Assembly: GCA_007859745.1 (NCBI GenBank)
Contig: SMLU01000001.1
Location: forward strand, 2,046,001-2,110,000
Length of the DNA: 64,000 bases
Source: Phycisphaerae bacterium RAS1
GTDB taxonomy: Bacteria; Planctomycetota; Phycisphaerae; UBA1845; Fen-1342
Reading direction: 5' to 3'
The notes below the pieces were generated by a model. It saw only the letters and a program-made list of their open reading frames with translations. It did no database searches and was not told the DNA's origin. A program made the position numbers and the translations under genes. Shown piece after piece: positions 23,670-41,749 of this stretch. Each line of letters begins with the position of its first letter. The stretch's first letter is position 1.

Positions 23670-23694
23670 CCCCGGCGGGTGCGAGCCGCCGGGG
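23670..23694 (-). terminator. Hairpin terminator after ardC
   Basis: A 9-bp perfect stem (CCCCGGCGG at 23670-23678, CCGCCGGGG at 23686-23694) with a 7-base loop. On the minus strand it follows the ardC stop by about 12 bases and is followed by a T-rich stretch (GGGTTCTTTTCTG). Confidence 0.65.
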
Positions 23695-23706: not shown

Positions 23707-24531
23707 TCAGGCGGCGTGCGCCTGCTCCTCGGGCGCGTGGAGCGCCGCGATGATGTCGGCGGCGGTGTGCTGGATGCGGTCCAGCGACGCGGCCAGCGTG
23801 TCGGTCTTGCCGTCGTAGAGCTGAATGTAGTCGCGGGCAGCGGCGCCGGCGTCCAGGCCCACGGCCTGGGCGACGACGAACGCGACGGCCTCGGCTTCGG
23901 TCTCGCGGACGGTCTTGCTGGCCGGGCGGTCCTCGCCGCGATGCAGAAGCTCGTGCGCCAGTTCGTGCGCGATCACCGCGAATTCCTCGGCGGCAGGCAG
24001 ACCCGGCCGGATGCTGATGCGGCCGCCGCGTGACAGGCCAAGGGCGCTGCCGAGACCGATCTCGTAGTCGAGCGAAATACCGCGCGAGGCGACGACCGTC
24101 TTGATTCGGTCGAGGTGCTGGCCGGGATCGCCGTTGATGCCGGCCGGCTCGGGCAGCGGCTGGCCGTCGGTCTGCGACACGTCGAAGACGTACACGCCGC
24201 GGAAGCGCAGCACGGAGTCGTCGCGTTCGGCGGATTCGCCCGCGGCAGGCATGGCGTCGCGCTTGCGAAAGACCATCGGCGCGATGATGACGATGCCCTT
24301 CTCGCCCTGGCGGACGTAGCGGCCGACCTGCTTCCAGGTGTTGAAGCCGGCGACGTGCGTCGCGTCGGGCTTCTGCGACATGATCAGCATGACGTTTCCG
24401 AAGCTGTACTTGTGGAACTTCGCCAGCATCGAGAGGTAGCGGGTGAGTTCTTCGCTCTTGCCGGCGGCGAGCGCTTCGGCGAGTTGTTCGAGGGCCTGGT
24501 CGGCGACTTTCTTGGCTTGTTCGGCTTTCAT
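23707..24531 (-). CDS. ardC: ArdC-like antirestriction protein (ssDNA-binding domain plus zincin)
   Basis: A 274-residue protein; ATG 24531 follows AGGAGCAAAATC. The N-terminal domain (KYSFGNVMLIMSQKPDATHV, FNTWKQVGRYVRQGEKGI) is the DUF1738/ArdC single-strand DNA-binding region. The C-terminal metallopeptidase-like domain has HELAHELLH. In conjugative plasmids ArdC protects incoming DNA from restriction. It lies at the left end of the integrated element, upstream in transcription of nothing else, and ends at a strong terminator. Confidence 0.88.
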   Translation of the reverse strand: MKAEQAKKVADQALEQLAEALAAGKSEELTRYLSMLAKFHKYSFGNVMLIMSQKPDATHVAGFNTWKQVGRYVRQGEKGIVIIAPMVFRKRDAMPAAGESAERDDSVLRFRGVYVFDVSQTDGQPLPEPAGINGDPGQHLDRIKTVVASRGISLDYEIGLGSALGLSRGGRISIRPGLPAAEEFAVIAHELAHELLHRGEDRPASKTVRETEAEAVAFVVAQAVGLDAGAAARDYIQLYDGKTDTLAASLDRIQHTAADIIAALHAPEEQAHAA

Positions 24532-25020
24532 GATTTTGCTCCTTGTCGGGACCCGCGACGTGCGGTCCCTTCGCAAGGCACGAGGGACCCCGGCGGGGGT
24601 GAAAAGGGAGCGAGCGGCGGCAAGGCCGGCAGAACGCCGGAGAGTCCCGCGAAGCGGAGCAGGACGAATGACGGACCGGACCGGAAGGGCGCGAAGCGGG
24701 TCCGGCGTGAGGCGTGCAGACTTGATGGCGGGAAGCGAAGCGGTGCCGGCTGGACGCCGCGATTGAAAGCCGGCCATGCGGAAGTGCCGGCAGCCAAGAA
24801 CAAGGCTCATGCACGGGCCGGTTCGCTCGCCACGCAGCTGACAAGGCCGAAAGCCCGTATCACCGTTCGGATTCGCTGCAGCTCCCTTGCAGAACAGCGC
24901 ATCGTGCGTTACCTGTACAATGAAGGGACGCCGCAGTCGGTGGCGTACGGCGTGATCTAGGGCGCCGGTGGCTGTCAGCCAGCCGAACGCACACAATACT
25001 GCCGTCTGAAAGAGTGCCGT
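24532..25020. other. 489-base spacer between ardC and the kinase gene
   Basis: A divergent spacer with no supportable gene. A long plus-strand open frame covers it but is the GC-rich shadow of ardC extended into non-coding DNA. Composition drops from GC-rich to more balanced near 24900, at the border with the kinase/HD module. Confidence 0.4.
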
Positions 25021-26400
25021 GTGAGCAAGAAATCGTCACCGCGGGAAAAACCACCAGCCGAAGCAGCCTTCTCATCCGGCGCACATGCACTTTCAGCACT
25101 AGGCAAGCCATGCGAGGATGTTGTTCGCGAACTCCTTGTTCCCGCGACCAACCAGCCGTTGTTTTCGCCAGCACAGGATTCGCAACTCCAGCACTTGGCA
25201 CAGGCTCTTAACTTGTGGACAGATGAACAAGAAAGGGCGACTGTAATTAGGCACTATCTAGCTGCTGCAGCGGGAGGTCGCGTATTAGATACCAACACCG
25301 TTGCCCGATGGATTCGCGCGCATATCAATGACGCTTTTGCCGTTTGCGACTGCATGAACGTCGATCCGCCAGCGGAAGTGACGATCGTTCGGATGCTATC
25401 CCGCGCCGGGAGTCAAAAGATTGTCTTCCTGGCGAATTGGAATCTGACACAAAGGCAAGTAGTACTAAAGCGACTGTCTGGCCCTCCTGAAACTCGAGCC
25501 GCACGCATACAGCGCGAGATTCAGGCACATCCCTTGTCATGGGTACACGACAACATCATTGAAACCCATTTTCTTCGTAATCCGAAAGACGAGGTATTCC
25601 TACTCGAGGAGTACCTTCCAGACGTACTTCGTGATGATTATCCAGCACAGGGAATCCTCGAAGGCGCAAATCTGTTTTATGATATTTGCAATGCCTTGAC
25701 TTTCTTACATGAGCAAGCAGGCTTGGTACATGGCGATGTAAAACCCGACAATATTGGGAAGCGCGGCACGACGTATATTCTCTTGGATTTTGGAATCTGC
25801 CGACCGAAAGATGACTTTTCGATTGACACAACGGCAACGGGAAGCCTCCGGACACGCGCGCCAGAATTGTTAACAATGGACGCTTACGCTGCGCCAGAAA
25901 AGGCCGACGTATGGGCAATAGGCGCGACGATTTTTAACTATTTTGCTGGACGGTTTCCTCTCATCGAGAGAAGCGAGCGAATTCCTCGTGTAAGCAATCC
26001 CACAGATAGATCGTCATTCGAGCAAGCACTGGCTGACCGAGTGCGAACTCGCTGGGACGAACTTGTTGATTTATCGCTTGTGCCTGAGGCAATGCGCCCC
26101 CCACTTCGCCGCGCACTTGTGCGAGATCACGAGGCACGTCCCACTGCGAGAGAACTGACGGCTGAGATTGAGCATGAATTACCTGCATACTTGCGCAAGT
26201 ACAGCGAGTCAGGGCGGTTCTCTCCAATAGAGCAACTTCGACAGCTTTCTTCGCACCTCCCCGGCAAAGATACCCTCAAACTTCTTCCGCCAGGAGATCT
26301 TCAGTCGCTTCGGTCGCTTTTGCAGACGATCGAAAGCGCCCGTAGCCTCCCGACAGAGTGCAATGCTGAGATTACTTCGATTAGAGAGCGTATTGGGTGA
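25021..26400 (+). CDS. Ser/Thr protein kinase-like protein of a kinase/HD pair
   Basis: A 459-residue protein, GTG start. Residues 1-120 are of unknown fold. The kinase domain (about 125-385) has the essential residues: VVLK with Lys150, HGDVKPDN (Asp239, Lys241), DFG at 256-258, and an APE-like site. There is no membrane helix or PASTA-type sensor, so it acts in the cytoplasm. The next gene begins 3 bases after its stop. Base composition is clearly lower in GC than the neighbouring plasmid backbone, indicating separately acquired cargo. It may regulate or trigger the HD enzyme in defence against phage; this is an inference. Confidence 0.8.
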   Translation: MSKKSSPREKPPAEAAFSSGAHALSALGKPCEDVVRELLVPATNQPLFSPAQDSQLQHLAQALNLWTDEQERATVIRHYLAAAAGGRVLDTNTVARWIRAHINDAFAVCDCMNVDPPAEVTIVRMLSRAGSQKIVFLANWNLTQRQVVLKRLSGPPETRAARIQREIQAHPLSWVHDNIIETHFLRNPKDEVFLLEEYLPDVLRDDYPAQGILEGANLFYDICNALTFLHEQAGLVHGDVKPDNIGKRGTTYILLDFGICRPKDDFSIDTTATGSLRTRAPELLTMDAYAAPEKADVWAIGATIFNYFAGRFPLIERSERIPRVSNPTDRSSFEQALADRVRTRWDELVDLSLVPEAMRPPLRRALVRDHEARPTARELTAEIEHELPAYLRKYSESGRFSPIEQLRQLSSHLPGKDTLKLLPPGDLQSLRSLLQTIESARSLPTECNAEITSIRERIG

Positions 26401-26403
26401 AAA

Positions 26404-27804
26404 GTGCCACGTGGTCGCGTTCAGCGAGTTCAGGACTCTGTTCACGGGCTCATGGAGTTCCAGGGGATGGAGTGCGTAGTCTTGGATGTGCTTCGCACGC
26501 CTGAACTACAACGATTGAGACGAGTTAGACAGTTAGGTCTCGCCCATTTCGTCTTCCCTGGAGCCGAGCATTCGCGACTCGTTCACTCACTGGGATCAGC
26601 ACATCTTGCAATACGATTTGCAAAGCAACTATCTGCTGTTGGGGAGGACCAGTACATCCGGGCATTGCTTCCAGGCGACACGGCGATCCGAGACGTGGCC
26701 GTCGCTGCATTGTGCCACGACCTTGGTCATGGTCCACTCTCGCATGCATTTGAAAAGGAAGTCGTTGGAAGAGACTTCAATCGCGAGGCGTGGATAACCA
26801 CACTAGGTATCTCAGCGGAGCGCGAATTAATATCCGGCGCGAAGTGGCATGAAATGGTTGGACACGCACTTCTCGCATGGGAGGACGGACAGCTACATAA
26901 ACTCCTTGAGGAACGAGAACGCGGCCTGAGCCTCAGAATTCGCCATCTTCTCCGGGGTAAGTATCACCCCTACTACCTAGGTTCGCTGCTCCGTGGCGAG
27001 GTCGATGTCGATCGAGCGGACTTCATTCGAAGAGACGCGCACCAAACGGGTGTCGCCTATGGTCGTTATGATCTCGACTGGCTGATTTCCACATGCGGAA
27101 TTGGCGTTGACTCTAGCAACAAGTTAGTGGTGGGGTTTGACGAACGCAAGTCAATTCGTGTTGTCGAGCAATTCTTGATCGCCCGGCGTGCGCTGTACGA
27201 AACCGTGTACTATCACAAAACAGTACATTGTATTGAAGGAATGGTGGCACTGTTTCTCAGACGGCTCCGTGATGTCGTGCGTGCGGGTAGCGATCTTGGA
27301 AATGATCGGTTTGTAGCACCGTATGTGGCGGTCGCCGCTGGCGAGGCAGTGAGCCAAAAGGACTTGTTGGTGCTCGATGATTTTTCTTTGTGGGTGCTCA
27401 TCGATAGTGTCGCAAACGATCAACGAGCGGACGATACACTTCGCGATCTTGGGCGCCGAATTATCGCTCGCGATTTGTTCAAGCAGGTCTCTTGCGACGA
27501 TAGACGGTTGGCGGAGTTCCTCAAACGACCGACCTGGCAAAGCGAAGTATTGGAGGTAGTTCAACGTTTTTGTCCAGGGCCTCCCGAATATTACTTGGTT
27601 TATGATCCTATCGAAATTCGGTTCTTCGCAGAGGATCGCTCCGAGTGGGGCCATTTTCTTGACAGTGATCGACGGGCCAGCCCCTTTCGGGATCACCCGA
27701 GTCTTCATGCATACTCACCTAGACCCGAGGGTTGGGCTCGCCTATTTACGTTAAAAGAGGCGACGGAGGATGTCAGCAAGATGATTGCGGGAGATTGGCG
27801 ATAG
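26404..27804 (+). CDS. HD-domain dNTPase-like phosphohydrolase (SAMHD1/YwfO type)
   Basis: A 466-residue protein, GTG start 3 bases after the kinase stop. The N-terminus DSVHGLMEF, then HSLGSAHLA, CHDLGHGPLSHAFE (His105-Asp106 metal site) and DVDRADFIRRDAHQTGVAYG follow the motif order of SAMHD1-like nucleotide triphosphohydrolases. In that family the enzyme cleaves dNTPs or related nucleotides, and dNTP depletion is an established antiviral strategy. The lower GC content matches the kinase gene. Together they look like a two-gene operon inserted between ardC and the methylase-helicase. Confidence 0.82.
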   Translation: MPRGRVQRVQDSVHGLMEFQGMECVVLDVLRTPELQRLRRVRQLGLAHFVFPGAEHSRLVHSLGSAHLAIRFAKQLSAVGEDQYIRALLPGDTAIRDVAVAALCHDLGHGPLSHAFEKEVVGRDFNREAWITTLGISAERELISGAKWHEMVGHALLAWEDGQLHKLLEERERGLSLRIRHLLRGKYHPYYLGSLLRGEVDVDRADFIRRDAHQTGVAYGRYDLDWLISTCGIGVDSSNKLVVGFDERKSIRVVEQFLIARRALYETVYYHKTVHCIEGMVALFLRRLRDVVRAGSDLGNDRFVAPYVAVAAGEAVSQKDLLVLDDFSLWVLIDSVANDQRADDTLRDLGRRIIARDLFKQVSCDDRRLAEFLKRPTWQSEVLEVVQRFCPGPPEYYLVYDPIEIRFFAEDRSEWGHFLDSDRRASPFRDHPSLHAYSPRPEGWARLFTLKEATEDVSKMIAGDWR

Positions 27805-27826
27805 CGTAGAAAGGCGGCACCAATCC

Positions 27827-30800
27827 TCACAATCCCATCGCGGGGGAATGTGCCCTAGGTGTTGTTGGCAAGCTCGGTAGGGTGACAAGTGCTTCATTGT
27901 TGGCCGTCACGGATGCATCCGTTGCTAGCTGGCGACGAATGCGGGCCGTGACAGGTTCCTCGGCGTCGATTCGGCGGGTGGTGATGCGTTCGGGGGCGGC
28001 GTCAATGGTGTGCGCGGCCTTCAGCGCCTTGACACGGTCGGCCAGTTCGGCGGTCGAAGGAGGCGGTTCGTTGGCGGGATCGGGTGATTCGTCGCCGCTG
28101 GCGTTCGACGGAATGCCGGCGAGGCTTGTCTTGAGCCGATCACGAAGTTGCGTCAGTTCGGCCTGGTAAGTTTCGTGCGTGAACGACTTGCCGATGCGGG
28201 CCTGGTAGTCGCGGAGTTGCGACTCGGCGATGGATTGGTCCTGCTTCACCCCGGCAATCTCGTTGCCGTAGGCGTTGCACAACCGCTCCAGGGCGTTGAG
28301 CACGGCGCGCGGGCCGTGGCTGCCGCGAATCAGCCGCTCGTAGCGCGTCGTCGCGCCCTCGACGTACACGTCGGGCGGGAAATCTCGATGCAGCACGAGA
28401 CCGAAGCGCAGGCCGCGATACACGCCGAGCGCGGCGCGCTGCTCCTGCCGCACGTCGCGCGGCAGCTTGTCTAGTTGAGCGCCTAGCACCGCGATGGCTT
28501 CGTCCTTTGCATACTCGCGACCGTTGAGCGTGACCGGGTCAAGGGCGTGCGCGACGACGGTCGATTGATCGGCGGTGAGATTCGACAGGCGGTCGTTGAG
28601 CCGGGCGATTTTCTCGGGCAAGTCCCGCACGTTGCGGCGGGCGACGTACTGCTCATCGACGTGGTTCTTCTTGAGCAATGCCAGCCGCTGCAATTCGGCG
28701 TCGGCTTCGGCAAGCGTCAGCACGGCTGGATTGCCTGAGGCAATGGCCTTGACCTCGGCGTAGGACAATTCCTGACCGCCGACATCCTCGGCGCGGCGGG
28801 AGGCATTGTGGCCCGTGATGACCTGGCCGATGAATCGGGCCTTCGTTTCAAGGGCCTGCCACATGTAGGCGTCGAAGGAGCCTTCGGTGACGTAACGATA
28901 GACAGCGACTTCCTCGTTGGAGTTGCCCTGGCGGAGGATGCGTCCCTCGCGCTGCTCGACCTCAGCCGGTTTCCACGGGGCATCAAGATGATGCAGAGCC
29001 ACGAGCCGCTGCTGCACATTTGTGCCCGTGCCCATCTTCTGCGTGCTGCCGATCAGCACGCGCACTGAGCCGTTGCGGACTTTCTCGAAGAGGGCCTGTT
29101 TCTTCACGTCGGAGTCGGCGTCGCCAATGGCGGCGATCTGCGCGCGAGGGACGCCGCGGGCAACCAACTTCTCGATTACGTCGTCGTAGGCCGAGTATCC
29201 CCACGGGGTCGGATGAACACCCATGTCGCAGAAGATCATCTGCGCGCCGCGCGTGGCGGCGGACTTCTCCCATGTAGCGGCGACGTTCTCCACCAGGCGG
29301 TTGACCTTTGAGCCGGGATCGTCGGGAGCGGAGGCGGAGAGCATCCGTCCGTCGAGCGCCAGCTTGCGGCCGTCGGTCGTGATGTTGAGTGCGTTGTCCT
29401 CGCGCGGGTCCACCTTCTCCGTCCGCAGCCGCTCGTAACGCGCGACGAGTCCGTCCTGAAGGGCGTGCTGCTCGGCCGACATGGGACAGGCGACGACGAT
29501 CGGTTTGCCGCTTTCCAGCCGCGGCCGCGGCAGGTTGAGCATGTCGGCCGTTTGCACGTCGGAGAAAGCACGGAACATCTGCTGCAATTCCGGGAGGTTG
29601 GTGAACTTGGCGAACCGGCTTCGCGGCCGCAGTGATGCGCCGTCCGGCGAGATTTCCATTGTGTCGATTACTTCGCCGAACGTGGCCGCCCAGGCGTCAA
29701 AGTGTTCCAGTCCCCGGCTCTTGAGCCCCGCCGGGTCAAGGAAGCGCTGCATCGTGTACATCTCGACCATCGTGTTCGATACCGGCGTGCCGGTGGCAAA
29801 GGTGACGCCGTGGCCGGGGTGCTGTTCGCCGAGATAGCTCGCCTTCATGTACACGTCGAAGGCGCGTTCGCTGCCGCCGGTCTGGATGCCGGCGACGCGC
29901 TCCATCTTGGTCGGCGTCTCCAGGTTCTTGAAGAAATGGGCCTCGTCGATGAAGCAATGATCGACGCCGAGTTCATCGAACACGAGACCGTCGTCCTTCT
30001 TTTCCTCAGCGAGCAGATCCTTCAAGCGTTCGACGCGGGCCGCCTTCTGCTTCTCGATCTGCTTGATGATGTTCCGGTTCGATCCCTTGGCGCCGGCGTG
30101 CTCGCGCAGCAGCTCGTCGTACTCGGCGATCTGCTCGACAAGGAATTTCTGCTGATAATCCCGCGACATGCCTATTCGCTCGAACGAGGAATGCGTCACG
30201 AGAATTCCGTCCCATTCACCGCTGGCGATTTTGGCGGTCAGCAGCTTGCGGCGGTCGCGGCGCAGGTCCTCCTTGCCGGCGACCAGCAGCCTGGCGTTGG
30301 GATAAAGCTGCATGAACTCGCGGGAGAATTGCTCCAGCAGGTGATTGGGCACGACGTACATCGGCTTCTTGATGAGACCGGCCTGCTTCATCTTCATGCC
30401 GGTCGCGGCCATCGTGTAGGTCTTGCCCGCGCCGACGGCGTGCGCCAGCAGCGTGTTACCGGAACTCATCCCCCGCCATATCGCGTCGGCCTGGTGCGGC
30501 CGCAGGTGGATCGTCTGGTTCATGCCGGGGAAGTCGAGGTGCGAGCCGTCGAACAGGCGCGGCCGAAGATTGTTGTAATTGTCGTTATAGACTCGCACGA
30601 GGCGTTCCGTCCGCTCCGGATCGGCGAATACCCAGGCGCGGAAACGCTCCTTGATGAGCTTCTGCTTCTCTCGGGCAGCCAGCGTCTCATTCTGGTTGAC
30701 GACACGCTCCTCCTTGTCGCCGTGGTCGATGATGTCGTAGATCACCGGCGATTTCATATTCAAGGCAAGTTCCAGCAGCCACGCGCCGTTGGCGCGGGCG

Positions 30801-33388
30801 GTGCCGTAATCAGAGGTTGCAGCGACCGACGCCCGCGCGGCGTGGCCGGCTTCGAGACTCCACACCGCGTCTTTTTCAAGATGCGAAACGGGTACGGCTT
30901 CCGGCGGAACATGAAACAACTCGGCCGCGAACGCCTGGATGTCGCTCGCCGGAATCCACGGCGCGCCGAGATTGGCGTCGATGTCGCCGGGCAGCACGTC
31001 TTCGGGCTGCACGCGCCGCAGCGCCTCGGCGTTCTGCGCGTATGCCCGTCCCGCCTTCTCCGCAGCCGATAGCTTTGAGCGAACGTTGCCAGATAGGTAA
31101 TCGTCGGCGGTCTTCCACTGCTTCGACTCCGGATCGTGATAGATCAGGTCGCCCAGTTCGGTGACGACACGCTCCTCCGGCTTGCCGTACAGCTCGGCGA
31201 TGAAAGGCAGGTCCACCCTTCCCCGCTGATTGAGCGATACCAGCAACCCTTCCTCGGCGCTGCTGACCTGCGTGACGGGCGGGGTTCTGCCCACCACGTC
31301 CTTGCTCATGATGGTGGCTTTCGCGGCCTTTTCTGTAACCTCGTCGTAGTCTTCGAGCGACATCACCAGCATGGCGTCAGGATCTTCGATGAATTTGACG
31401 AGGTTGGGCCGGCGGCGGATGACGCTGCCGTCACGGCTCTCGCTGAAGCCGGTCTTGTTGATCGGGCGGTAGGCACGGCTGAATCGGTCGTAGGCATGAT
31501 TGAGTTCGCGCCGTGCTTCGTCTCGATGCTCTATCGGCCAGCCTTCGTTCTGTGATTGCAGCACGCGGCGGGCGCAGTCGCGCAGGCCGACCAATGCCGC
31601 GAGCCTTCGGCCAGTGAACGTCCCGTTGGCCTTCAGCGCCTTGCCGCCGTATTCGACGGGGACGCCCTGGCCGTTTATCAGCTGGCAAATGGCGTTGTCG
31701 TCCCGGACGAAGAAACTCCCCTCGTTGATGTGCTTTTCGGGCGGCGGCGGCGTGAACGTCGCGGCGGATTGCTCGGATTCACGGGACGCCGGCGCCGGTT
31801 GGAACTGCGGCAACTGCCGGACTGCATCCTTGAGCTTGGCCGCGAGATCGCCGTTGCCGCGAACGCTGTAGCCTTCCCCGCCGTAAAGCGTGTCCTGTCT
31901 CGTCCAGGTGCCCAGCACCATCTCTGGATGGTTGAGGAAGTAGCGATTGACCGGGACTTCGGTCCCTTCGATGGCAAGCGGAGCAATGCCGAGCCACTGC
32001 GGATCGGCATGATGGGCCGGCTCGCCGGGCGCGCGTCTGCGCAGGAACACGATGTCGGTGACGACGGCCGTCCCCTCGCGCTTGAAAGCATCGGACGGCA
32101 GTCGAATCGCGCCGACGAAGTCGGCCTTGTCGCCGAGATACTCGCGGATGGCGGCGTTCTGCTTGTCGAGTGTGAAATGCGACGTGACCACGGCCAGCAC
32201 GCCGCCGGGCTTCAGCGCATCGACCGACTTGGCGAGGAAGTAATCATGCAGCGCCAGCTTCTGCCCGTGATAATCGAGTTTGATGTCGGCGAAGGGCACG
32301 TTGCCGACGACGGCGTCGATGCGGTCCTCGGGCAGCTTGGTGTCGCGGAAGCTCTCAATACGGATGTCCTGATCGGGATGCAGCGCCCGCGCGATCCGGC
32401 CGGAGATTGAATCGAGTTCGACGCCGATGAAGCGGTGCCGGCTGCTACCCCGGCTCATGAAATTGCCGATGCCGCATCCCGGTTCCAGGATGGTGGCATC
32501 GTCGGGAACACCCAGCCGCGCGATGGCCACGTGAATTCCGGCGATGACAACGGGCGACGTGTAGAAGGCGTTGAACGTCGTGCGCTTGGCACTGCCGTAC
32601 TCGGCGGGGGTGAGCAGGGATTTCAATTCCTCGCCGAGCTTCTCCCAGCCGGCGTCCTTGTATCGCTGCGTCAACGGATCGGGAAAAATCGACAGGGCGA
32701 CCGGGCCGAAGCCGGCGAAGCGGGCGAGCGCCTGCCGCTCCTCCGGCGTCGCCGCTCGCTGTTCGCTTTCGACAATCTGAAGGGTGCGGATGGCGGCGAT
32801 GATGTCGCGGGCTTTTTCCTTCTCGCCGCTGGCGATCTGGACAGATGTCGTCGCTTCGGGTTTGTTGGAGGCTGACGCGGTTCGATCAGAGGACGGGCGG
32901 AATTCGGACGGCGCTGAAGGCGACAGCAGGTCGAACAGCGTCGGCTCGCCTGCCCATGTCAGGCGCGCGACGTGCGTTTGCGGGACCGCGCCTTTGCGGC
33001 GCCCGACGACGAGGGGTTCTTTTCGCCCGGCAGCGACGCGTTCCGCAAACGAGGCCTCACCTCGGCGAGCGCGATCTCCAGCGCCGCGCTGGCGAGCTGG
33101 ATCGAATCCATGTCCGGCCGGCTCATTGGCAGGGCCGCTTTCCAGTGTTCGTGGCGCGTCTTCAGTTCGCCGGCGTAGTGGTTCACGACCGCGAGCACCT
33201 TCCGTTTTCGGCGAAGCCGGCCGTGAAGCCAGGGCTGCTGTCGAAGCAGCTCGATGATGATCGTCTTGTACGGCATGGTGGCCTCCTGTTTGTGTATCGG
33301 GGGGTTCTTCGAGCGCGACCGGCGGATCGTCCGTATCGGACGAGAACGGCAGAGTGGGATGCTGAGGGGGACGTGTCCTGCGGCCCAT
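27827..33388 (-). CDS. Very large N6-adenine methylase / SNF2-type helicase fusion
   Basis: About 1850 residues. A methyltransferase domain has ILEPGCGIGNF (SAM motif I) and GNVPF (catalytic NPPF variant) in the first 375 residues. A superfamily 2 helicase has HAVGAGKTYTMA near 985, FIDEAHFF near 1150, GSTQKMGTGTNVQQR and QREGRILRQGN. A coiled-coil C-terminus follows. Such proteins occur in conjugative elements and phage (DarB-like) and are linked to protection of transferred DNA. The start is unresolved: in this frame no ATG, GTG or TTG occurs between the ATG at 33388 (or TTG 33400) and the methylase domain. That interval contains another gene with a strong ribosome site. Coordinates are the open frame. 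Confidence 0.85.
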   Translation of the reverse strand: MGRRTRPPQHPTLPFSSDTDDPPVALEEPPDTQTGGHHAVQDDHHRAASTAALASRPASPKTEGARGREPLRRRTEDAPRTLESGPANEPAGHGFDPARQRGAGDRARRGEASFAERVAAGRKEPLVVGRRKGAVPQTHVARLTWAGEPTLFDLLSPSAPSEFRPSSDRTASASNKPEATTSVQIASGEKEKARDIIAAIRTLQIVESEQRAATPEERQALARFAGFGPVALSIFPDPLTQRYKDAGWEKLGEELKSLLTPAEYGSAKRTTFNAFYTSPVVIAGIHVAIARLGVPDDATILEPGCGIGNFMSRGSSRHRFIGVELDSISGRIARALHPDQDIRIESFRDTKLPEDRIDAVVGNVPFADIKLDYHGQKLALHDYFLAKSVDALKPGGVLAVVTSHFTLDKQNAAIREYLGDKADFVGAIRLPSDAFKREGTAVVTDIVFLRRRAPGEPAHHADPQWLGIAPLAIEGTEVPVNRYFLNHPEMVLGTWTRQDTLYGGEGYSVRGNGDLAAKLKDAVRQLPQFQPAPASRESEQSAATFTPPPPEKHINEGSFFVRDDNAICQLINGQGVPVEYGGKALKANGTFTGRRLAALVGLRDCARRVLQSQNEGWPIEHRDEARRELNHAYDRFSRAYRPINKTGFSESRDGSVIRRRPNLVKFIEDPDAMLVMSLEDYDEVTEKAAKATIMSKDVVGRTPPVTQVSSAEEGLLVSLNQRGRVDLPFIAELYGKPEERVVTELGDLIYHDPESKQWKTADDYLSGNVRSKLSAAEKAGRAYAQNAEALRRVQPEDVLPGDIDANLGAPWIPASDIQAFAAELFHVPPEAVPVSHLEKDAVWSLEAGHAARASVAATSDYGTARANGAWLLELALNMKSPVIYDIIDHGDKEERVVNQNETLAAREKQKLIKERFRAWVFADPERTERLVRVYNDNYNNLRPRLFDGSHLDFPGMNQTIHLRPHQADAIWRGMSSGNTLLAHAVGAGKTYTMAATGMKMKQAGLIKKPMYVVPNHLLEQFSREFMQLYPNARLLVAGKEDLRRDRRKLLTAKIASGEWDGILVTHSSFERIGMSRDYQQKFLVEQIAEYDELLREHAGAKGSNRNIIKQIEKQKAARVERLKDLLAEEKKDDGLVFDELGVDHCFIDEAHFFKNLETPTKMERVAGIQTGGSERAFDVYMKASYLGEQHPGHGVTFATGTPVSNTMVEMYTMQRFLDPAGLKSRGLEHFDAWAATFGEVIDTMEISPDGASLRPRSRFAKFTNLPELQQMFRAFSDVQTADMLNLPRPRLESGKPIVVACPMSAEQHALQDGLVARYERLRTEKVDPREDNALNITTDGRKLALDGRMLSASAPDDPGSKVNRLVENVAATWEKSAATRGAQMIFCDMGVHPTPWGYSAYDDVIEKLVARGVPRAQIAAIGDADSDVKKQALFEKVRNGSVRVLIGSTQKMGTGTNVQQRLVALHHLDAPWKPAEVEQREGRILRQGNSNEEVAVYRYVTEGSFDAYMWQALETKARFIGQVITGHNASRRAEDVGGQELSYAEVKAIASGNPAVLTLAEADAELQRLALLKKNHVDEQYVARRNVRDLPEKIARLNDRLSNLTADQSTVVAHALDPVTLNGREYAKDEAIAVLGAQLDKLPRDVRQEQRAALGVYRGLRFGLVLHRDFPPDVYVEGATTRYERLIRGSHGPRAVLNALERLCNAYGNEIAGVKQDQSIAESQLRDYQARIGKSFTHETYQAELTQLRDRLKTSLAGIPSNASGDESPDPANEPPPSTAELADRVKALKAAHTIDAAPERITTRRIDAEEPVTARIRRQLATDASVTANNEALVTLPSLPTTPRAHSPAMGL
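32959..33276 (-). CDS. Small conserved element protein overlapping the methylase-helicase frame
   Basis: A 105-residue protein with ATG 33276 behind a near-perfect AGGAGGCCACC. It starts MPYKTIIIELLRQQPWLHGR, a helical, basic protein of a kind I associate with genes directly upstream of such methylase-helicases in mobile elements. The C-terminus is Arg/Lys/Ser-rich. It lies wholly inside the 5' open frame of the large gene, in another frame, and ends where the recognisable methylase sequence begins. Translation of the large protein may depend on it by coupling or frameshift. Confidence 0.65.
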   Translation of the reverse strand: MPYKTIIIELLRQQPWLHGRLRRKRKVLAVVNHYAGELKTRHEHWKAALPMSRPDMDSIQLASAALEIALAEVRPRLRNASLPGEKNPSSSGAAKARSRKRTSRA

Positions 33389-33400
33389 GCTCAGGAACAA

Positions 33401-36076: not shown

Positions 36077-36742
36077 CTACCCTTTCACGGCCTGGCGTTC
36101 TTCGGCCGGCGCGACGGCGTCCGGCAGAATCTCGCGGAAGATCGCTTCAGCTTCTAGTGCCGCCTCGCGTGCGCGGGAGCCGAGATTCCAGACGGTGGAC
36201 CCCTGCCCCGGCGCGTCGGCGTAAATCTGCCGCAGACTCATCGCGGTTGACGCCATCGGCAGCGACAGCGCCGCCGCCGCGTCCTTCATGTCCTGGGTCA
36301 GCCGGTAATTCTTTCCGACCATGCTGAGGACGATAATGGCCTTCGGAATCCCGCCGCGGATGTCCTGGGCCTGCCGCAAAACCTCTGTTGCCTTGGCAAG
36401 CGCCCGGACCTCTAACATGCTGGCTTTGCAGGGAACAATGGCAAGATCGCCGCGCAAGAGCAGCGCGCGGCTCGTTTCGGTCTGGCTGCCCGGTCCGTCG
36501 GCGACGACGTAGTCGGCGTCTTGGGCGAGAATCGGCAGTTCATTCAAGATGATGTCGGAGTTATCGAGGCGGACGGCTTTGATCTCCGGTATCGCCTCGC
36601 GTATCCATTCGGAGGATGACTGCTGTGTGTCGCAGTCGGCGAGCGTCACCTTGTGGCCCTGCTCATGGAGCCACGCGGCCAGGTGGACGGCCAGCGTTGA
36701 CTTTCCGACGCCGCCCTTGGAGTTCGCCACGACGATAATCAT
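36077..36742 (-). CDS. parA: ParA partition ATPase
   Basis: A 221-residue protein started at ATG 36742 (MIIVVANSKGGVGKST). The deviant Walker A KGGVGKST, LADCDTQQSS (motif A') and VVADGPGSQ (Walker B) are all present. The small size and lack of an N-terminal HTH place it in the class Ib ParA group, which moves plasmid copies using a small RHH partner. It lies between the partner gene and a repeat-rich centromere candidate. Confidence 0.9.
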   Translation of the reverse strand: MIIVVANSKGGVGKSTLAVHLAAWLHEQGHKVTLADCDTQQSSSEWIREAIPEIKAVRLDNSDIILNELPILAQDADYVVADGPGSQTETSRALLLRGDLAIVPCKASMLEVRALAKATEVLRQAQDIRGGIPKAIIVLSMVGKNYRLTQDMKDAAAALSLPMASTAMSLRQIYADAPGQGSTVWNLGSRAREAALEAEAIFREILPDAVAPAEERQAVKG

Positions 36743-36755
36743 GAAAGATGGATAG

Positions 36756-36990
36756 CATGATTTCATGCAGGCTGGCAAGCACTATTTGTTGCAGGCATGA
36801 AAGCTCGCCGTCCTGCAAGCAATCTGTCAAGATTACCTGCCTGCAATCAGGCAAGCTGTCATGCCGCGCTGCTTGCAATCAAGCAATCTTGACAGATTGC
36901 TTTCCATCCGGCTTGCACGCCTGCCGTCCTTCCATCTGTCATGCAAGCATGATGGCAAGCTGACATGCTTTCATGCAGGCTTTCACGGTG
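36756..36990. repeat. Centromere-like repeat region upstream of parA
   Basis: An exact 18-bp inverted repeat occurs at 36817-36834 and 36885-36902 (AAGCAATCTGTCAAGATT and its complement). The region is bracketed by near-identical CATGATTTCATGCAGGCT (about 36760) and CATGCTTTCATGCAGGCT (about 36965). Between them are many GCAAGC, GCAGGC and CATG words in both orientations. This is what a parS/parC site for an RHH partner would look like. It also contains the parA promoter. Confidence 0.65.
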
Positions 36991-39106: not shown

Positions 39107-41749
39107 ATGCTTCGCATCAATCAGAACACCGCGCCCGAAGGCGCAAAGAGCTACTATTCGACCGCCGACTATTACTCGGAAGGTCAGGAGCTTACCGGCC
39201 GCTGGCGCGGAGACGGGGCCACGCGACTCGGGCTATCGGGCGCAGTCGGGCAGAAGGACTGGGACGCGCTCTGCGACAACATCGACCCGAACACGGGCAA
39301 CGCGCTGACGCCGCGGCAGAATACCGGGCGTCGCGTCGGCTACGACTTCAACTTCCACGTGCCAAAAAGTGTGTCAGTGCTCTACGGCCTCACCAAGGAC
39401 GAGCGAATCCTGGAAGCGTTCCGCGAGTCGGTTGATGCGACGATGCAGGACATCGAAGCGGAAATGAAAACCCGCGTCAGGCTCGCCGGCAAGAATGAGG
39501 ACCGCACGACGGGCAATATGGTGTGGGGCGAGTTTATCCACACGACGGCGCGTCCGGTGGACGGGATTCCCGATCCGCACCTGCACGCCCACTGCTTCGT
39601 GTTCAACACGACCTGGGACGGCATCGAAGAACGGTGGAAGGCGGGCCAGTTCGCGGGCCTCAAGCACGACGCGCCGTTCTTCGAGGCGGTGTTTCATTCG
39701 CGGCTGGCGCGGCGCATGGAGGAACTGGGCCTGGCGGTGCAGCGGACGCGGCACGGGTGGGAGCTGGCCGGCGTGCCGAAGGCGGCGCTGGCGAGGTTCT
39801 CGCGGCGAACGGCGCTGATCGAAGACAAGGCGCGGGAGAGGGGCATCACCGATGCCGAGACGAAGGGCGACCTGGGAGCGAAGACGCGCGAGCGCAAGCG
39901 CAAGGATCTGACGTTCGATGAACTCGGCCGCGAATGGAGGTCGCGGCTCTCGCCGGAGGAACTGGCGGCGCTCAACGGCATCAAGTCGCGGCTGGGCATG
40001 GACAGCATCGCGGAGGATGACCGCGCCGCCGGCGACGCCGTCGCCAAGGCAATCAAGCACTCGTTCGAGCGCAGCTCGGTGCTGGCGGAGCGCAAGCTGG
40101 TGACGGCGGCGCTCAAGCGTTCTTACGGCGCGGCCTCGGCGAAAACGATAATGCAGAAGCTCGGCGACGCGAACCTGGTGCGCGGCGAGCGCGACGGGGA
40201 GCAGCTCGTCACGACCGGCGACGTGGTCGCCGAAGAGCGGCGCATCATCGACTTCGCGCGTCAGGGCAGGGGCACCTGCCGGAAGCTCGGCGACGGCGAG
40301 CACGCCTTCACGCGCGAATGGCTCAACGCCGATCAACGGAGCGCCGTGCTGCACGTTCTTCACTCGCCCGACCGGGTCATGCTGATTCGCGGCGGAGCCG
40401 GCACGGGCAAGACCTCAATGATGTCGGAAGCCGTTGAGGCGATTGAGAAAAGCGGGAAACACGTTTTCACCTTCGCGCCCTCGGCCGACGCCAGCCGCGG
40501 CGTGCTGCGCGATCAGGGCTTCGCCGATGCGGAGACGGTGGCGCGGCTGCTGGTCGATGGCGAGTTGCAGCAAGAGGCGAGGGGGCAGGTGCTGTGGATC
40601 GACGAAGCCGGGCTGCTCGGCACGAAGACGATGGGGCATGTGTTTGACCTGGCGGAGCAAATCGACGCCCGTGTCATTCTCTCCGGCGACCGGCGCCAGC
40701 ATGGAAGCGTTGAACGAGGGGCGGCACTGCGGCTGCTCGAAGAGCAGGCCGGCACGGTGCCGGCGGAAATCCGCGAAATTCAGCGGCAGAGCGGCGCGTA
40801 CAAGGAAGCGGTCAAGGCGCTGTCGCAGGGCCGGACGGAAGAGGGGCTTCAGGCGCTCGACCGGCTGGGCTGGGTGCGCGAAGTCACGGAGACCGATCGC
40901 TACAAGTTGATGGCGGAGGATTACGTCGCCAGCCTGGAGGAAGGGAAGACGGCGCTGGTGGTGAGTCCCACACACCGCGAGGGCGACTGGATCACCGATG
41001 AAATCCGCGCCAAGCTCAAGCAATCCAAGCGGCTTGCCGGACGCGAGCGGCACGTGCTGATGCTCCACAACACGCATTACACCGAAGCCGAGCGTAGCGA
41101 CCCCATCAACTTCGAAGCCGGCGACGTGCTGGAGTTCCACCAGAACGCGAAGGGCTACGGCAAGAACGAGCGCGTTGTGGTCGGCGACGAGGCGCCACCG
41201 GTCGAACACGCGGCGAAGTACACGTTCTTCAAGCCCGGCCTGCTGCCGATCGCGCCGGGCGAACTGATCCGCATAACACGCAACGGCAAGACCGCCGACG
41301 GCCTGCACCGGCTCAACAACGGCGCAACCTTCTCGGTGAAGGGCTTCGACGGCAACGGGAACATCATCCTCGCGAACGGCTGGACGGTTGCGAAGGACTA
41401 CGGGCATCTGACGCACGGGTACGTCGTCACAAGCCATGCGAGCCAGGGCCGCACAGTCCAGCGCGTGCTGATCGGCGAATCGGCACAGAGCTTCCCGGCG
41501 GCGTCGCGCGAACAGTTCTACGTCTCCGTCTCACGCGGCCGCGAGCGGGCGACGATCTACACCGACGACAAGGCGGCGCTCAAGGCGGCGGTCAGTCGCT
41601 CCGACTCGCGCATGTCGGCAACCGAACTTGTGAACGGCCGTCACCTGCGCGAGCGCGCGATGACGATGGAACGGCTGGAACAACTGCATCCGGCCGTCGC
41701 CGTTAGCGAAGCGCAGTGGCAGCAAGAAAGGAACGATTATGAACGGTAG
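39107..41749 (+). CDS. MobF relaxase/helicase, TrwC/TraI type
   Basis: An 880-residue protein. The N-terminal relaxase domain has paired tyrosines (SYYSTADYYSEGQE, residues 15-28) and the metal-binding triad PDPHLHAHCFVFN (about 157-169). The C-terminal superfamily 1 helicase has GGAGTGKTS (about 430), WIDEAGLLG and SHASQGRTV. This is the classic MobF architecture for nicking and unwinding oriT DNA during conjugation. No coupling protein or pilus genes lie in the window, so transfer machinery is either further right or supplied in trans. Confidence 0.95.
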   Translation: MLRINQNTAPEGAKSYYSTADYYSEGQELTGRWRGDGATRLGLSGAVGQKDWDALCDNIDPNTGNALTPRQNTGRRVGYDFNFHVPKSVSVLYGLTKDERILEAFRESVDATMQDIEAEMKTRVRLAGKNEDRTTGNMVWGEFIHTTARPVDGIPDPHLHAHCFVFNTTWDGIEERWKAGQFAGLKHDAPFFEAVFHSRLARRMEELGLAVQRTRHGWELAGVPKAALARFSRRTALIEDKARERGITDAETKGDLGAKTRERKRKDLTFDELGREWRSRLSPEELAALNGIKSRLGMDSIAEDDRAAGDAVAKAIKHSFERSSVLAERKLVTAALKRSYGAASAKTIMQKLGDANLVRGERDGEQLVTTGDVVAEERRIIDFARQGRGTCRKLGDGEHAFTREWLNADQRSAVLHVLHSPDRVMLIRGGAGTGKTSMMSEAVEAIEKSGKHVFTFAPSADASRGVLRDQGFADAETVARLLVDGELQQEARGQVLWIDEAGLLGTKTMGHVFDLAEQIDARVILSGDRRQHGSVERGAALRLLEEQAGTVPAEIREIQRQSGAYKEAVKALSQGRTEEGLQALDRLGWVREVTETDRYKLMAEDYVASLEEGKTALVVSPTHREGDWITDEIRAKLKQSKRLAGRERHVLMLHNTHYTEAERSDPINFEAGDVLEFHQNAKGYGKNERVVVGDEAPPVEHAAKYTFFKPGLLPIAPGELIRITRNGKTADGLHRLNNGATFSVKGFDGNGNIILANGWTVAKDYGHLTHGYVVTSHASQGRTVQRVLIGESAQSFPAASREQFYVSVSRGRERATIYTDDKAALKAAVSRSDSRMSATELVNGRHLRERAMTMERLEQLHPAVAVSEAQWQQERNDYER

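Follow-up and report, generated by a model that had tools for sequence, protein, structure and literature searches.

A kinase gene and an HD hydrolase gene on a mobile element

We analysed a stretch of 64,000 nucleotides from Phycisphaerae bacterium RAS1 (contig SMLU01000001.1, positions 2,046,001 to 2,110,000), here called the window, and focused on two adjoining genes that lie between an ArdC-like gene and a helicase gene on a mobile element. The first encodes a Ser/Thr kinase and the second an HD-type protein that is a candidate deoxynucleoside triphosphate (dNTP) hydrolase, or dNTPase. The pair comprises the following features:

25021..26400, plus strand: kinase gene, Hanks-type Ser/Thr kinase of 459 aa, GTG start (open reading frame, translation, Pfam, alignment with Snf1)
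25021..25407, plus strand: N-terminal part of the kinase, about 129 residues, outside known families (no Pfam match and no relative in our searches)
26404..27804, plus strand: HD gene, SAMHD1/EF1143-like HD phosphohydrolase and candidate dNTPase of 466 aa, GTG start (translation, PDB matches, invariant columns, model)

Both genes are intact, and only 3 bases separate the kinase stop from the HD start, as a first-pass annotation made from the DNA letters had described. This annotation had also noted a lower GC content than in the surrounding backbone. Indeed, GC is 0.52-0.55 across the three 1-kb bins of the pair and 0.66 and 0.65 in the adjacent bins. The GC content at third codon positions (GC3) agrees, with 0.49 for the kinase and 0.52 for the HD gene compared to 0.89 for the ArdC gene, 0.78 for the helicase, 0.78 for the ParA-like ATPase, 0.84 for the TrwC-type relaxase and 0.91 for a COX1 gene in the flank. 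The DNA of the pair is foreign in composition. Close spacing together with matching composition suggests that the kinase and HD genes travelled together. Chance open reading frames (ORFs) were rejected as an explanation, since both proteins exceed the cut-offs of curated families, and so was duplication of a host gene, since the host has no further copy of the HD family at E <= 1e-3.

The HD protein matches the Pfam families HD (29.4 bits, cut-off 22) and HD_assoc_2 (27.3 bits, cut-off 23.1). Its nearest PDB sequences are BT4208 (2q14) and EF1143 (2o6i), followed by SAMHD1-type chains, and the sequence match to human SAMHD1 spans residues 8-363. Residues H61, H105-D106 and D203 align with the HD ligands of SAMHD1 and EF1143. 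Together with H149-E150 they are invariant in two sets of aligned sequences (9/9 and 23/23); presumably they serve as metal ligands and HE dyad. The predicted structure (pLDDT, the model's confidence score, of 90.3) retrieved the EF1143 structure 4lrl with Foldseek at 5e-23 and superimposes on EF1143 with Z 38.4 and a root mean square deviation of 2.5 A over 411 of the 466 residues; against human SAMHD1, Z is 32.0. Position 207 is occupied by Phe, where at least 90% of the 23 sequences have Tyr; Phe is also found in two of the eight relatives in the set of nine. We take this Tyr to be the equivalent of the sugar-contacting Y315 of SAMHD1, a usual but not strictly defining residue. Thus, the metal ligands, the HE dyad and the full-length fold of SAMHD1/EF1143-type dNTPases are present, while the sugar-contact Tyr is not. 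The natural reading of sequence, residues and predicted fold is that the HD protein would be a dNTPase, which strengthens the annotation's description of it as dNTPase-like. No relative of the HD protein was confirmed in the viral_contigs scan.

The kinase matches Pfam Pkinase with 84.3 bits (cut-off 31.7; 1.2e-23) across residues 130-380. It has an HGDVKPDN catalytic loop, DFG and APE motifs, and an alignment with Snf1 pairs its Lys and Glu with their counterparts there. With the family score above cut-off and the catalytic Lys, Asp and DFG in place, it is a Hanks-type kinase, although of the non-RD kind (HGD replaces HRD) and with a poor glycine loop. The N-terminal region, which the first-pass annotation had put at about 120 unassigned residues, holds up as such: residues 1-129 have no Pfam match at E up to 1. 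A scan of genome_contigs with six 8-residue patterns from residues 1-160, which detects close relatives only, gave 111 pattern matches of which none was confirmed; likewise, no relative of the kinase was confirmed by the pattern scan of viral_contigs, again sensitive to close relatives. No full-length relative with the same N-terminus was found among the best 8 candidates per genome in 198 genomes of the class and the best 4 per genome in 392 genomes of the phylum (out of up to 783 candidates per genome). Among the phylum matches listed, the gene itself aside, none reaches further towards the N-terminus than kinase residue 78, and the lowest E-value is 1.7e-17. Searches with tblastn returned one partial match each in plasmids (E <= 1e-10) and phages (E <= 1e-8), both confined to the kinase domain. 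An AlphaFold model of the kinase, built without an alignment, reached a pLDDT of 39.8.

In PADLOC, the kinase scores best against defence kinases, mad6 (2e-24) and PD-T4-6 (3e-19), by way of the generic kinase domain only. The PD-T4-6 model, for which no cut-off is given, scores 67.7 bits and covers most of its 292 positions, yet aligns with residues 130-383 only. Membership of the kinase in the PglW family of BREX (bacteriophage exclusion) was rejected (NCBIfam 24.3 bits versus a cut-off of 990).

The cargo slot and its contents in sister elements

The pair sits in an element with the following features:

24776..27930, no strand: cargo slot, the stretch without a blastn counterpart of at least 60 bases in sister elements; borders approximate
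23707..24531, minus strand: ArdC-like anti-restriction gene, left border of the slot (ArdcN 2.6e-11; homologues in sister elements)
27827..33400, minus strand: helicase of 1857 aa with a methyltransferase-like N-terminal part, right border of the slot (Pfam ResIII, Helicase_C)
36077..36778, minus strand: ParA-like partition ATPase (NCBIfam ParA_partition 155.4 bits, under the cut-off of 180)
39107..41749, plus strand: TrwC-type relaxase (Pfam TrwC 1.5e-68)

The ArdC gene likely starts at 24531, where we spotted a preceding AAGGAG by eye. The methyltransferase matches of the helicase in Pfam are weak. The first-pass annotation had placed the pair between two anti-restriction genes. This stands for ArdC on the left; on the right lies the helicase, which we take to be anti-restriction (DarB-like) by an assumed label.

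We searched 114 genomes of the order with a 600-aa piece of the helicase and found copies that are 88-97% identical in 10 of them. Including the window there are 16 copies (one, G487:C26, was reported in two pieces), and two of the other 15 lie in the window's own genome. All 15 were fetched and 14 were assessed; L170, cut off by a contig edge, was left out. Two distant helicase relatives from the class search, L163 (40% identical) and L165 (on a short contig), stand outside the count. Eight sister copies retain ArdC's upstream side; in these, similarity to the window at the nucleotide level ends at 24,771-24,797, and in copies that extend to 27,918-27,946 it resumes there, about 35 codons ahead of the helicase stop. 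The stretch in between has no blastn match of at least 60 bases in any sister copy, and neither protein occurs in the fetched stretches. Instead, the slots of the sister elements contain:

L154 (G482): DUF2130 protein, GajA (2e-197) and GajB (3e-185), a Gabija system
L157 (G436): DUF2130 protein, GajA (8e-194) and GajB (1e-175), a second Gabija type
L161 (G487): kelch protein, DUF2130 protein and OLD protein (4e-87)
L155 (window's own genome): DUF2130 protein and PDC-S06-like ATPase (1e-46)
L168 (G628): TRIP13 (6e-131), HORMA (7e-51), cyclase (1e-124) and NucC (2e-88) by PADLOC, a type III CBASS (cyclic oligonucleotide-based antiphage signalling system)
L159 and L164: chromate transporter and PadR, identical across 3400 bases
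L156 and L160: HlyD/AcrB-type efflux, without blastn similarity between the two
L166: ABC transporter with radical SAM genes
L158: RHS/dockerin protein
L162: kelch, phosphorylase-like and P-loop genes
L167: DUF642-type protein and unassigned proteins
L169: hardly any content, with the borders about 250 bp apart

Known or candidate anti-phage genes thus occupy 5/14 slots, metal or chromate efflux 4/14, and other genes or nearly nothing the remaining 5/14, so that anti-phage genes and efflux are the two commonest recognised contents. For this tally, anti-phage genes were those with PADLOC matches at E <= 1e-40, a line set after the matches were known. Part of the slot ORFs was scanned; L158 was judged by Pfam alone and L164 through L159, with which it is 100% identical across those 3400 bases. 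Sub-threshold matches were left uncounted (in L166 a radical SAM protein to pVip at 2e-16 and an ABC ATPase to mad3 at 9e-26; in L162 the P-loop protein to PDC-M51B at 1e-5). Protein comparison located ArdC on the far side in L154, L155, L157, L159, L161, L164 and L167, and remnants of it were recognised in L162 (protein) and L169 (nucleotide). Four of these nine copies carry defence or candidate defence genes. The interval between ArdC and the helicase is strongly supported as an exchangeable cargo slot that holds the pair, in line with the mobile-element cargo of the first-pass annotation: here the sister elements have different genes or hardly any, and they lack the kinase and HD genes in the fetched stretches. 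The slot also offers a defined place to seek further defence or resistance cargo in this order.

The DUF2130 proteins of four slots (L154:8015-9286, L155:8541-9797, L157:8735-10012, L161:10977-12266) are 93-94% identical, whereas the ATPases beside them differ. The two GajA proteins (35% identical to each other) and the OLD protein share 26-35% identity mutually, and the PDC-S06-like ATPase of L155 aligns in short stretches only. DUF2130 may be the constant partner of OLD/SMC-type defence ATPases that are themselves exchanged.

The element is integrated into the bacterial chromosome, on a contig of 3.4 Mb, and to its left lie COX1 and a ferredoxin-type protein. Similarity to L157, L159, L161, L162, L166 and L167 stops within 1-2 bases of window position 23670, just past a hairpin that follows ArdC, and the element may have its left end here. 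Beyond the relaxase on the right, a run of large ORFs in window 44489-63499 matches RHS-repeat, dockerin and, weakly, DUF3836 families.

Weighing a defence role

We consider a defence role, in which the kinase and HD genes act together as cargo of the element, to have a probability of about 0.45. The HD protein would hydrolyse dNTPs and thereby halt phage DNA synthesis. The kinase, whose translation immediately precedes that of the HD protein, might sense infection through its N-terminus, or the N-terminus might restrain the kinase, which in turn would phosphorylate the HD protein and switch the enzyme on or off. That the kinase acts on the HD protein is suggested only by the adjacency of the genes, and which way the switch would work is conjectural as well; restraint of the HD protein in uninfected cells appears slightly likelier because free dNTPase would be toxic. 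The more specific proposal, that the non-RD Hanks kinase senses infection by means of a novel N-terminal domain and switches a SAMHD1-like bacterial dNTPase by phosphorylation, is doubtful at present. What favours defence is the foreign composition, the type of enzyme and the position. The first-pass annotation had proposed an anti-phage function as well, with the kinase as a conjectural sensor or switch; its support comes from position only, by way of the five sister slots with known or candidate anti-phage genes.

Several observations, given in this and the following two paragraphs, weigh against a defence role. Position by itself is weak evidence, because 9/14 assessed sister slots have no counted defence gene. 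DUF2130 is present in 4/5 defence-type slots and absent from the window's slot. For 5/14 copies (L156, L158, L160, L166 and L168), the far side yielded no intact ArdC homologue, and their slots are without an established border there; L166 retains a 76-base stretch at the ArdC side, and L168 has an IrrE-type protein there. The substrate of the HD protein may differ, because F207 replaces the usual Tyr. Membership in curated anti-phage families was rejected for both proteins, with 21.7 bits versus a cut-off of 400 for the HD protein against the anti-phage dGTPase (NCBIfam NF041026) and 48.9 bits versus a cut-off of 460 for the kinase against MAD6 (NCBIfam).

A second pair did not turn up in our searches either. 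With the best 4 candidates per genome scored, the HD family is present in 152/392 phylum genomes at E <= 1e-12, and we inspected 150 HD loci, about 149 of them distinct (L069 equals L037, with identity across the 400 bases compared): 39 from phylum genomes, 3 from plasmids, 80 from genome_contigs and 28 viral. Among the 39 phylum loci, 29 were seen with a flank of about 1.5 kb or less (L005-L033), 20 with a longer flank where the contig permits, and 10 in both ways; many further loci stop at contig edges. The 80 are the best from an HD-alignment scan of genome_contigs that returned at least 590 stretches, at least 469 of them confirmed. HD matches occurred in 21 plasmid records, with surroundings inspected in 3, and in 6 phage records, with surroundings inspected in none. 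A kinase adjacent to the HD gene was found at 0 of the roughly 149 loci, using phmmer with the window kinase and a catalytic-motif pattern, a test that a degenerate kinase would escape. At L059 a kinase lies more than 4 kb from the HD gene on the opposite strand.

Conversely, an HD gene was present at 0/17 kinase loci within the fetched DNA (L055, L056, L137 and L174-L187). Within this scope, the plasmid, phage, viral and genome_contigs searches yielded no kinase-HD pair, and titles and abstract beginnings of open-licence PubMed Central articles contained no kinase-dNTPase defence pair. The conserved association that the first-pass annotation had made a check of its proposal thus failed to appear, although these numbers leave room for a rare second pair. 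The pair is a single known occurrence, so far unique.

The searches brought up other arrangements. On plasmids of Sinorhizobium and Roseibium (L002:3622-7407 and L003:267-3886) a run of four genes encodes a radical SAM protein, a 3'-5' exonuclease, an AAA ATPase and, as the last gene, an HD protein of the same superfamily. At L002, genes for Shedu-like and HEPN/Toprim proteins and for a 7-cyano-7-deazaguanine synthase are in the vicinity. It is possible that this run is a separate defence operon. A plasmid record of E. coli (L137:1771-3899) has two tandem Ser/Thr kinase genes adjoining P2-type phage genes.

Other explanations of the pair were considered. Stk2 is known as a defence kinase, and the window kinase could, like it or like PD-T4-6, itself be an anti-phage effector or sensor, with the HD protein as a nucleotide hydrolase in an accessory role or as a neighbour by chance. 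Such separate cargo would fit with the missing recurrence and with the PADLOC matches of the kinase, which concern its kinase domain only, but spacing and composition suggest joint travel, and we hold this explanation to be unlikely. A little less likely still is a benefit to the element or host outside defence, with the pair as a regulator of nucleotide pools or stress signalling, comparable to the efflux and transporter cargo of other slots. The nine sister slots in which the partial ORF scan counted no known or candidate defence gene agree with this, and so does a same-superfamily HD protein among ordinary genes at L004. On the other hand, neither gene of the pair resembles transport or metal-resistance cargo, and anti-phage genes, in 5/14 slots, join efflux (4/14) as the commonest recognised contents.

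The lowest standing goes to an addiction or stability module, in which the HD protein would be a dNTP-depleting toxin and the kinase its antidote by phosphorylation. Cells losing the element would die, and any anti-phage effect would be a by-product. We regard this as improbable: the sister elements lack both genes in the fetched stretches and therefore do not need the pair for their upkeep, and both genes are far longer than typical toxin-antitoxin genes. It would nevertheless match the tight layout of two genes carried by an element that also encodes a relaxase and a ParA-like ATPase, and reduced nucleotide availability is toxic (PMC12265719). Taken together, we favour the defence role, at the probability stated above.

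Relation to known systems

Among kinases, MAD6, PD-T4-6 and PglW of BREX are Hanks-type as well and their models match the window kinase. This likeness is confined to the kinase domain, whereas the N-terminus of the window kinase matches nothing found. The anti-phage dGTPase (NCBIfam NF041026, PADLOC dGTPase) shares the HD superfamily and the proposed effect with the HD protein, but the match extends over no more than some 60 residues that surround the HD motif. EF1143, a dNTPase of Enterococcus faecalis (PDB 2o6i/3irh/4lrl), is similar over nearly the full-length fold and in the HD and HE motifs and D203. It differs in that identity is 24% over the aligned residues and that the window protein has F207 instead of Tyr and an adjacent kinase. 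Fold, HD and HE motifs and D203 are also shared with SAMHD1; SAMHD1 contains a SAM domain, which the window protein lacks. Enzymes of the SAMHD1/EF1143 type are characterised by dNTP triphosphohydrolase activity and by a tetramer that nucleotides drive.

Clover is the known system closest in layout. It consists of the dNTPase CloA, a dGTPase that dTTP activates, and the nucleotidyltransferase CloB, whose product restrains the dNTPase (PMC12265719); a search of this paper for words starting with "kinase" gave none. Both Clover and the pair have two genes, an HD-type dNTPase effector and a controlling enzyme, which is shown for Clover (PMC12265719) and proposed for the pair. The partner in the window is a protein kinase, while CloB is a nucleotidyltransferase; the absence of chains named CloA or Clover among the PDB and fold matches listed does not imply that the HD protein and CloA are unrelated. 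An assignment of the pair to Clover itself was rejected, since its neighbours are the kinase, ArdC and the helicase, without a nucleotidyltransferase.

If a defence role holds true, dNTP depletion and protein kinases, each already known from immunity, would be joined in one bacterial operon. The pair could then serve as a genetic system to study how phosphorylation holds a dNTPase in check, comparable to SAMHD1, whose restriction ability is regulated at T592 (PMC4980677). Under the more specific proposal of a kinase-gated dNTPase, the phospho-control of human SAMHD1 would have a counterpart in bacteria, and there would be a second route to dNTPase safety besides the nucleotide signal of Clover. 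By analogy, it is plausible that the pair would work like a regulated dNTPase module in which a kinase takes the place of the nucleotidyltransferase.

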